NCBI GenBank assembly: GCA_000992325.1 | Contig: LBTZ01000003.1 | Location: 1 to 47,534, forward strand | Source: Parcubacteria group bacterium GW2011_GWD2_38_11 | GTDB taxonomy: Bacteria; Patescibacteriota; Minisyncoccia; Moranbacterales; GWC2-37-73 | Reading direction: 5' to 3' | DNA length: 47,534 nt | Shown: one piece after another, positions 11,978 through 23,070 of the stretch | Numbering within the stretch: position 1 is the first letter of the stretch | Layout: the number at the start of each line of letters is the position of its first letter | Notes under the pieces: model-generated | The model's input: only the letters and a program-made list of their open reading frames with translations | What the model was told of the DNA's origin: nothing | Databases searched by the model: none | Program-made: the position numbers and the translations under genes

Positions 11978-12113
11978 AAAAATTTCTAATGTCTAATTTC
12001 TAATATCTAATAAAAATTTTAATGACAAAATGTCCAAAAGTTTCGTGCATTAGGAATTGGAAATTAATTAGAAATTGGTAATTAGGAATTAGAAATTAAA
12101 GATAAATTTAGAT
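11978..12113. repeat. Inverted pair of heptamer arrays (TTCTAAT / ATTAGAA) with shared core
   Basis: Left arm: TTCTAAT, GTCTAAT, TTCTAAT, ATCTAAT. Right arm: ATTAGAA, ATTGGTA, ATTAGGA, ATTAGAA, ATTAAAG, the reverse complement type. The loop contains AATAAAA, TAATGAC-x-AAAT and TTCGTGCATT, close to the loop of the element at 22.93-23.07 kb. It occupies the divergent gap before rsmI. Confidence 0.75.
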
Positions 12114-17009: not shown

Positions 17010-17011
17010 AA

Positions 17012-17107
17012 ATAACTAATAACAAACAACTAACCACTAACAACTAAAAACAGGGGCTCAATAAAGGATTTATGTTATAAGTTGTAAGTAGTAAGTTGTC
17101 AGTTAAT
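17012..17107. repeat. Inverted pair of heptamer arrays (CAACTAA / AAGTTGT)
   Basis: Left arm AACTAATAACAAACAACTAA and further units; right arm AAGTTGT, AAGTAGT, AAGTTGT, CAGTTAA. The loop is an unrelated 25-30 nt. The right arm ends 3 nt before the glycosyltransferase ATG. Confidence 0.75.
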
Positions 17108-17110
17108 TGT

Positions 17111-18274
17111 ATGAAAATTGGAATTGATGCTCGCTCAATCTTGAATCCAGAAAAAGGAGATGCAATTGGAGTTGGACATTATACTTATCAATTGATTCGC
17201 CACTTGTTGAAAATCGACAAAGAAAATGAGTATGTTATTTTCTTTGATTTCCGTGTACGAGAAAAGGATATCAAAAAATTCGCTCAATCAAATGTTAAAA
17301 TAAAATTTTATCCTTATTCTGATTATAAAAAATATTTACCAGGAGCGTATAGCGAAATTTTGGGAACAGCAACACTTCAAAAAGAAAAACTTGATGTTTT
17401 GCATTCTACTTCAGCCTTTAATCGTATTCCAATCGGTTATGGCGGTAAGACGGTGGTGACCTTTCATGATATGTCGATGTATAGCATTCCACAATATCTG
17501 TCAGCTGTAAAAAGAACTCGAAACAAAACAGTAGCTCGCTTGATGGGGCGCAAGGCTGACAAAATAATTGCAGTTTCAACTTCAATAAAAAATGATGTTG
17601 AAAAATTCATTGGCGAAGCTGGTGAAAAGACACAGGTTGTTTATAGTGGACTTGATCAGCGTTTCTTTAATGAACCTGAAGTAGCGGCAACGAAAGTACT
17701 TGGAAAATATGACATTACAAAAAAATACATTTTATTTTTGGGAACTTTGGAGCCATCTAAAAATATCACACGTCTTTTGGAGGCTTTTGCAAAATTTAAA
17801 GCTGATCAAAAACAAAAAAATTCCGGCAAATTTGAATATCAATTGGTGCTTGCTGGTAAGCGTGGTTGGCTTTCTCAGGAATACTTGCAAATTATTAAAG
17901 ATTTGAATTTAACAAAGGATGTTGTGTTTACGGGTTATGTAATTGGAGATGAACTTGTGCCACTTTTCCGCAACGCTGAATTTTTTGTTATGCCATCTTT
18001 ATATGAGGGATTTGGAATGACGGTGCTTGAGGCGTTTGCAACAAAAACTCCTGCAATTTTGGCTAATGTTTCATCACTTCCGGAAATTGCTGGTGAGGCT
18101 GCATATTTCATAAATCCTCTTGATACGGCTGAATTAGCTGAAGCGCTTGGAAAATTTGCAACGGATGAAAATTTGCGATTAAGCTATGTTGCAAAAGGAC
18201 TTGAGCAAGCAAAGAAATTTGATTGGGATAAAACTGCCCGTGAAACATTGGAGATTTACAAAAGTTTAAAATAG
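17111..18274 (+). CDS. Glycosyltransferase family 4-type (GT-B)
   Basis: 387 residues from MKIGIDARSIL. Retaining GT-B glycosyltransferase, likely transferring a sugar from a nucleotide sugar to a surface polysaccharide or lipid. The N-terminal Rossmann half has GVGHYTYQL. The C-terminal half has YILFLGTLEPSKNITRLLEA and the E-x7-E donor motif in PSLYEGFGMTVLEAFATKTP. An upstream in-frame start lies in the heptamer array and is not used. Donor and acceptor cannot be told. No SD. The promoter for the T-box transcript lies inside its last codons. Confidence 0.92.
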   Translation: MKIGIDARSILNPEKGDAIGVGHYTYQLIRHLLKIDKENEYVIFFDFRVREKDIKKFAQSNVKIKFYPYSDYKKYLPGAYSEILGTATLQKEKLDVLHSTSAFNRIPIGYGGKTVVTFHDMSMYSIPQYLSAVKRTRNKTVARLMGRKADKIIAVSTSIKNDVEKFIGEAGEKTQVVYSGLDQRFFNEPEVAATKVLGKYDITKKYILFLGTLEPSKNITRLLEAFAKFKADQKQKNSGKFEYQLVLAGKRGWLSQEYLQIIKDLNLTKDVVFTGYVIGDELVPLFRNAEFFVMPSLYEGFGMTVLEAFATKTPAILANVSSLPEIAGEAAYFINPLDTAELAEALGKFATDENLRLSYVAKGLEQAKKFDWDKTARETLEIYKSLK

Positions 18275-18283
18275 GCATATCAT
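18255..18283 (+). promoter_or_regulatory. Promoter of the T-box/ileS transcript
   Basis: TTTACA, 17-bp spacer, TATCAT. The -35 lies within the 3' end of the glycosyltransferase gene. The expected start (about 18290) coincides with the beginning of T-box stem I. Confidence 0.65.
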
Positions 18284-18287
18284 AAGA

Positions 18288-18530
18288 ATACAAAAGCGTT
18301 GATGAGGAAATCACCTCGGAGCTGCGAAAAGAAATCCCTTGGGAAAGTAGAATTCGTCGGGTAAGCCCGTAATAGCCGTAAAGAGAGCTTATTAGGCAGT
18401 AGCTTCTTAGCTTTTTAGGAAATGCATTTTTCTAAGAAGCTAAGAAGCTAAGAAGCTGAGAAGCTGAATTAAGGTGGTACCGCGTTGGAAGACGTCCTTA
18501 TGCATTTATTTGCATGGGGACATTTTTAAT
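18288..18530 (+). promoter_or_regulatory. T-box riboswitch controlling ileS
   Basis: The conserved T-box sequence AAGGTGGTACCGCG is at 18471-18484. It can pair its AAGG with CCTT (18496-18499) as antiterminator; the competing terminator is GTCCTTATGCA / TGCATGGGGAC plus ATTTTT (18494-18527). Stem I begins with GCGTTGATGAGGA and ends with AAAGAGAGC, the usual kink-turn strands. Uncharged tRNA-Ile binding should stabilise the antiterminator and switch on ileS. The specifier codon is not clear: the bases before AAAGAGAGC read AATAGCCGT, where ATA (Ile) is possible but AUC would be expected. The linker contains an expanded 8-bp tandem repeat. Confidence 0.9.
18432..18467 (+). repeat. Octamer tandem repeat within the T-box linker (AGAAGCTA x4)
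   Basis: Four tandem copies of AGAAGCTA/AGAAGCTG. The opposite strand of the hairpin is AGCTTCTTAGCTTTTTAG (18401-18418), so the long repeat offers several alternative pairing registers for the same partner. Confidence 0.8.
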
Positions 18531-18531
18531 T

Positions 18532-18655
18532 TCGAATACTGAATTTTGAATTTCGAATGAAGTCTGAATGATTGAATGTTTGAAATATTAGAAATTAAGA
18601 AATTAAAAATTGATTAAAAATTCAAAATTGGAAATTAAAAATTGCAGGCTGAAAT
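18532..18655. repeat. Degenerate heptamer array pair (TTGAATT/CGAATTT type)
   Basis: GAATACT, GAATTTT, GAATTTC, GAATGAA units, then AGTCTGAATGATTGAATG and an A-rich arm with ATTAAAAATTCAAAATTGG in reverse orientation. It lies between the T-box terminator and the ileS ATG, so it is part of the ileS leader. The segment CGAATNAARTCTGAATGAT recurs at the right edge of the window. Confidence 0.65.
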
Positions 18656-22933: not shown

Positions 22934-23070
22934 GTCTCCAAATTTTCAATTTACAATTTTCAATTTCCAATAAAATCATAATGACTAAATATTAAATACT
23001 TTAATAATTTGTGCATTGAGAAATTGAGAATTGTTTGGAAATTGGAAATTGGTTATTGGAAATTATTGTC
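22934..23070. repeat. Inverted pair of heptamer arrays (CAATTTC / GAAATTG) with shared core
   Basis: Left arm CAATTTA, CAATTTT, CAATTTC, CAATAAA; right arm GGAAATT, GGAAATT, GGTTATT, GGAAATT. The loop has AATAAAA, TAATGAC-x-AAAT and TTTGTGCATT, matching the loop of the 11.98-12.11 kb element. It lies between recO and the next gene. Confidence 0.78.

Follow-up and report, generated by a model that had tools for sequence, protein, structure and literature searches.

Introduction

Transcriptional T-box riboswitches generally need a long Stem I, according to the sections of PMC7583486 that deal with them, and Class III T-boxes are defined, in the corresponding sections of PMC10482949, by a short Stem I whose specifier lies in an apical loop of five to six bases. 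As these sections describe them (PMC10482949, PMC7583486), the Class III leaders of ileS in Nocardia and Mycobacterium possess a short Stem I without the elbow-binding module, a Stem II with S-turn, and the IIA/B element, and the described ileS members act on translation. The S-turn role of the Stem II strands and the discriminator motif 5′-RRRxG-Stem III-AA-3′ are taken from the relevant part of PMC7583486. BrickBuilt, another element relevant here, is in the cited part of PMC4596501 a MITE with a minisatellite, present 19 times in one genome of Porphyromonas gingivalis, whose 23-nt repeats lie between small inverted ends.

The ileS leader described here resembles the Class III leaders, as far as the cited sections characterize them, in its short Stem I without elbow-binding module, in its specifier within the apical loop, and in its Stem II with S-turn and IIA/B element; unlike the described translational members, it has an intrinsic terminator. 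With the canonical transcriptional T-box (RF00230) it shares the T-box sequence, the antiterminator and terminator, Stem II, IIA/B, and the flanks of Stem III, but it is devoid of the distal Stem I. Its Stem III is a palindrome which, like BrickBuilt as described in that excerpt, belongs to a small dispersed element with tandem repeats; in contrast to BrickBuilt, a single long palindrome has both its arms made of 7-9-nt repeats, and copies stand in functional RNA helices. We consider it highly probable (roughly 0.8) that the leader is a transcription-terminating tRNA-Ile T-box with an ultrashort class-III-like Stem I and a dispersed palindrome as replaceable Stem III. A search of titles, in which subscription journals are thinly covered, yielded no T-box riboswitch paper for the Candidate Phyla Radiation (CPR), Parcubacteria, or Patescibacteria. 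Among the matches listed, no title concerned palindromes of CPR, Moranbacteria, or Parcubacteria, and a paper on a phage was the single match for palindromic repeats in Moranbacteria.

The T-Box Leader of ileS

The window, that is, the whole stretch of 47,534 nucleotides analysed, belongs to a genome of 936 kb in 39 contigs, 90% complete. The nearest named relatives of its ileS are found in Candidatus Moraniibacteriota (Moranbacteria) and Parcubacteria-group MAGs (83-90% identity), which agrees with the CPR-like genome proposed in the initial annotation. RF00230 matches positions 18290-18502 of the + strand over the whole length of the model (positions 1-219), with 64.1 bits and E 9.6e-14 (cmscan). 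The score lies under the Rfam gathering cut-off of 93 bits, which is a curation threshold and no biological feature; RF00230 expects a long Stem I, and 74 model positions stand opposite 4 bases. The gathering-threshold scan of the window yields no entry. The T-box sequence and an antiterminator with UGGN bulge are aligned as AAGGUGGUACCGCG...ACGUCCUU, and GUCCUU is common to the antiterminator and the terminator. The complete T-box previously annotated before ileS, with promoter, Stem I, antiterminator, and terminator, is thereby recovered (Table 1). By eye, promoter-like sites resembling that of the window are also present in L005, L006, L007, and L009. The microRNA matches given by cmscan score far under the respective cut-offs and are explained by nothing more than a long hairpin.

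Table 1: Features of the ileS leader, in window positions; R1 is the palindrome model described below, and motifs from PMC7583486 follow the cited part of that source.
Feature	Position	Strand	Basis
Promoter-like TTTACA-17-TATCAT	18255-18283	+	Consensus scan, 10/12 matches; the end of the preceding gene runs into the -35
Ultrashort Stem I, GAGG-(AA AUC A)-CCUC, six-base apical loop	18304-18317	+	Sequence
Specifier AUC (Ile)	18310-18312	+	Sequence
Stem II, S-turn strands AAGAAA (18329-18334) and AGTAGAA (18346-18352)	18323-18358	+	Position and motif by eye
Stem IIA/B element GTCGGGTAAGCCCGTAATAGC	18356-18376	+	By eye
AAAGAG, 5′-RRRxG flank of Stem III	18380-18385	+	Motif per PMC7583486
Stem III, tandem-repeat palindrome; 5′ arm 18386-18422, 3′ units 18434-18465	18386-18465	+	R1 match, pairing in leaders
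GAA, 3′ AA flank of Stem III	18466-18468	+	Offset 7 or 8 before the T-box sequence, 32 leaders
Antiterminator with T-box bulge UGGU-ACC (18475-18481)	18471-18499	+	RF00230 alignment
Intrinsic terminator, stem 18494-18521, T5 18523-18527	18494-18527	+	Terminator scan
ileS, isoleucyl-tRNA synthetase, 979 aa	18708-21647	+	ORF and ileS relatives

A second tandem-repeat palindrome occupies 18530-18645, downstream of the T-box terminator and upstream of ileS; its units, for example AATTTTGAATTTCG, have 7-8 bases. A similar one occupies the same place in L017 and L027 and is absent in L005 and L006. Two further T-box matches occur on contig C1 of the same genome, L002 and L003, the former upstream of a glycyl-tRNA synthetase-like gene and with the bulge UGGA.

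Concerning the cognate tRNA, tRNA-Ile(GAU) was confirmed at all four same-genus loci scanned. It carries discriminator A, so that its ACCA end can pair with the UGGU bulge, and with this tRNA from same-genus genomes both contacts fit, namely, specifier AUC with GAU and bulge UGGU with ACCA. In the window's own assembly (90% complete), no tRNA-Ile gene is among the 42 tRNA matches, ARAGORN gave none on 21 and then 8 loci, and a pattern search that did match tRNA-Ile in genomes G001-G005 gave none either.

In the mechanism that we propose, AUC in the Stem I loop would read the GAU anticodon of tRNA-Ile, and this pairing would be braced by Stem II and IIA/B. The ACCA end of uncharged tRNA would pair with the UGGU bulge and stabilise the antiterminator, and ileS would be transcribed; charged tRNA would be unable to pair, and the terminator would form. 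The Stem III slot accommodates, in half of the leaders compared, a dispersed tandem-repeat palindrome of swappable family, which in the window is AAGCT. The binding of tRNA and the antitermination are predicted for the window leader from these features.

Related Leaders

T-box matches (E 0.001) are present in 6/6 genomes of the genus and in 16/18 of the family. None of the 18 family genomes has a leader that reaches the Rfam cut-off, and such switches are therefore probably missed by annotation. The comparative set was drawn from two sources, a search of genomes, from which 14 ileS-type leaders were used, and 80 ileS loci, 24 of which show a T-box motif in the 900 nt preceding them. After removal of L058, L059, L060, L063, and L069, which lie on the same contigs as leaders already in the set, 33 distinct leaders were retained. 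In five of them (L061, L062, L067, L072, and L092) the T-box stands more than 500 nt upstream of ileS, and an intervening gene may be the target; in L017 the contig breaks off short of ileS.

A short Stem I that carries the specifier in its apical loop is a common property of the set: in 30/33 leaders a script found a hairpin of 4 bp in which exactly two bases precede AUC; it chose longer loops in L084 and L106 and found none in L092. The IIA/B element is visible by eye in most leaders compared. Terminators follow 30/33 leaders by script, and those of L001, L017, and L074, with few bases between the terminator stem and the T-run, were accepted by eye; that of L001 also appears in the window terminator scan. 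The translational platform of the described Class III ileS members is hence not what these leaders have. Given the terminator, the leader is said to work like a Class III sensor on a transcriptional platform and is not classed as a member.

Some leaders depart from this design. L004 and L080 have the bulge UGGC instead of UGGU despite an AUC specifier, and UGGC would fit a discriminator G; L004 stands before a second ileS of G004, 45% identical. An extra hairpin (GCCC...GGGC-like) is found between Stem I and Stem II in L005, L006, L018, L019, and L021. L027 lacks both the RRRxG flank and the 3′ portion of IIA/B, beside a palindrome from a different family, and is possibly a broken T-box.

Stem III as a Probable Slot

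In the window the discriminator motif is represented by AAAGAG, an 80-base hairpin, and GAA. Stem III is part of the aminoacylation-sensing domain, and the repeat hairpin fills that position. The base of the stem was compared in 32 leaders, L027 being dropped for want of the RRRxG flank. Pairs 1-4 are standard in 32/32, with 5, 5, 5, and 6 pair types, respectively; pair 5 is standard in 30/32 and pair 6 in 21/32. Over the first six pairs, 93% are paired, against a mean of 47% and a maximum of 64% in 2000 re-pairings between leaders, a control in which shared ancestry stays since the leaders are related; the 5′ boundaries were set by eye, which favours pairing, and the 3′ boundary was set at offset 7 or 8. 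Isolated folds close the base in 31/32 leaders (pair 1, P at least 0.84), the exception being L106 (0.07). In the full-length fold of the window leader, which includes neither tRNA nor pseudoknot, the base closes with P 0.62, or 0.31 with the antiterminator held. The length of Stem III is bimodal, 13-49 bases in 16 leaders and 60-83 bases in the other 16. Constraint is visible only at the base and in the two flanks (RRRxG and AA), and the remainder is a slot.

The strongest evidence for such an exchange of the entire stem comes from pairs of close leaders. L017 and L074 share 98% identity in the 129 bases preceding Stem III, L021 and L018 are 95% identical upstream of it, and the antiterminator regions are 94% and 100% identical, respectively; in both pairs the families of Stem III differ. 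Different families within near-identical leaders suggest, on sequence comparison, that the whole stem was exchanged as a unit.

The Dispersed Palindrome Family

The pattern AAGCTNNNAAGCTNNNAAGCT occurs in 10/18 family genomes, with zero matches for the reversed pattern, and the surroundings of its matches share the palindrome AGCTTNTTAGGCNTTAGCTTNTTAG... plus its complement. A model, R1, was built from 11 palindrome copies, all outside T-boxes. R1 finds the Stem III of the window with 71.0 bits (E 1.5e-14) and scores 70-77 bits on those of the window, L005, L006, L007, and L022; it matches weakly those of L017, L019, and L021 (21-27 bits) and, at E 10, has no match to those of L018, L026, L061, L072, and L106. 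It has matches in 17/18 family genomes, its rows overstating the copies as both strands are listed. At E 1e-5 R1 matches 15/112 class genomes and none of the other 97, so that AT richness by itself does not produce a match. The 37-base 5′ arm of the window agrees at 26-34 of 37 positions with 22 of 25 other copies and at 21-22 with the remaining three, whereas the highest value for shuffled arms is 23. Nonrepeat features are also common to copies at unrelated loci, namely, AGGC, which interrupts the repeats, and GGAAA, with which the 5′ arm ends. Judged from these similarities, the window hairpin is one member of the dispersed AAGCT family of palindromes.

The palindromes are multicopy, short, noncoding, and dispersed, as in MITE- or REP-like elements. 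In 24/25 copies an end of a mechanical ORF is no more than 10 bases away, in 13 of them on both sides, and a mechanical ORF overlaps two of the 25. REP/BIME, NEMIS, and BOX are short intercistronic palindromes with many copies, and the likeness to them is one of description. Among the unit families that occupy the T-box slot, two more are dispersed, CATGGAACATGGAACATG in 6/18 genomes and ATACNTNATACNTNATAC in 15/18, the latter with some reversed-pattern matches. The copies probably spread by transposition or recombination.

A further copy is located in ribosomal RNA. The 16S rRNA gene of G005 (RF00177, 1417.9 bits) holds the palindrome inside a hairpin, GAGACTGCCCAG...GGAGGAAG, which we take to be helix 39; the same hairpin has short forms in G003 and G004. 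The copy stands at positions 1463-1529 of L155, in a same-genus genome.

As a separate observation on the window, 39 tandem tracts of period 6-10 were counted, among them 11980-12103, 17011-17104, and 22940-23060; 10 have a complementary arm nearby, and the units vary from gap to gap. Five block shuffles of the window gave 0-4 tracts, 0-1 with such an arm.

Octamer Units and Alternative Explanations

The initial annotation had described an octamer repeated four times opposite a single complementary strand, and had proposed that the helix can slide between registers and that copy number could tune the switch. The four octamers are indeed present at 18434-18465, read as AGAAGCTA, two exact and two ending in G; Tandem Repeats Finder reports 18432-18465 with period 8, 4.2 copies, 96% matches, and score 61. 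The opposite strand is not single, as the 5′ arm is likewise repeated (18400-18418, 2.4 copies, same program), and in the fold the last 3′ unit is the partner of AGCTT (18386-18390), the outermost part of this arm. The Tandem Repeats Finder table of the window has 93 rows, in which other arrays score 62; arrays of such strength being common, the octamer array alone is not unusual here.

A phase-variable riboswitch, in which octamers would be gained or lost by slippage and would tune or switch the read-through of ileS, is very improbable. The tandem octamers and their 96% identity are what this explanation expects, and so are the folds with altered 3′ units, modelled like those of the registers without tRNA and pseudoknot. 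For one to seven units, the first pair of the isolated stem closes with P 0.00, 0.00, 0.55, 0.96, 0.05, 0.01, and 0.02, respectively, and in the full leader the base closes with 0.62 at four units and at most 0.02 at other numbers. A change of units in one arm would thus open the modelled base of Stem III, and copy number could matter if it varied; this part of the tuning proposal stands in the models. Variation itself is not seen among the 8 AAGCT-type Stem IIIs (L001, L005, L006, L007, L017, L019, L021, and L022), each from the genome of a different species: the comparison of repeat number suggested earlier, run between these species, gives four AAGCT units in the 3′ arm in 8/8, with stem lengths of 72-80, and the units vary through substitutions while their number stays the same. 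In L084, whose family is uncertain, the 3′ arm has two units. The gap between antiterminator and terminator remains 7.6-8.2 kcal/mol throughout two to seven units in the fold, and both arms are repeated as members of a dispersed family. Sliding finds little room in the models, as the in-register fold of the isolated window stem closes the base with P 0.96-1.00 (first four pairs) and the energy is -41.1 kcal/mol in register against -30.1 in the next, 11 worse. The constant four units together with this slip cost leave phase variation by copy number unsupported.

It is also unlikely, though less so, that the hairpins grew in place through slippage and hairpin-templated copying that kept the arms complementary, the likeness between loci being convergent. 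Many loci show the same design with a different unit, and the short 16S hairpin of G003 already has TTAGC...GCTAG where G005 has the long palindrome, both as such growth would have it. Convergence does not readily give the AGGC interruption and the GGAAA arm end common to unrelated loci, the agreement at 26-34/37 positions in 22/25 copies, or the lack of R1 matches in 97/112 class genomes; the repeat does not look like a microsatellite grown in place, as the earlier description had it, and belongs to the dispersed family. Least probable of all is a decaying T-box whose discriminator was broken by the palindrome, so that the leader is no working switch. The score below the Rfam cut-off and the losses of the relative L027 beside a palindrome point in that direction, but specifier, S-turn, IIA/B, bulge, and terminator are kept in the window leader and in most others, and the base of Stem III is preserved through compensatory changes. 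The reading as a T-box with a replaceable Stem III is preferred, and most likely the palindrome does not tune the switch and is tolerated because the site needs a hairpin.

Significance

Two things are unusual in this locus: a minimal sensor is coupled to a terminator, and a dispersed palindrome serves as Stem III. The former, a minimal apical-loop sensor joined to a transcription terminator, is a combination which a review treats as atypical in the part of it considered here. The latter indicates what the T-box mechanism requires of Stem III and is a clear instance of functional RNA in which dispersed palindromes act as replaceable helices. More tentatively, and at somewhat less than even odds, Moranbacteria and other Patescibacteria may harbour interchangeable palindromes with tandem units of 7-9 bases that spread between genes and replace whole RNA helices; such palindromes would become structural parts and would be exchanged over short evolutionary times. 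In this regard, the leader makes it testable how a small, tightly spaced genome turns repeats into RNA structure.
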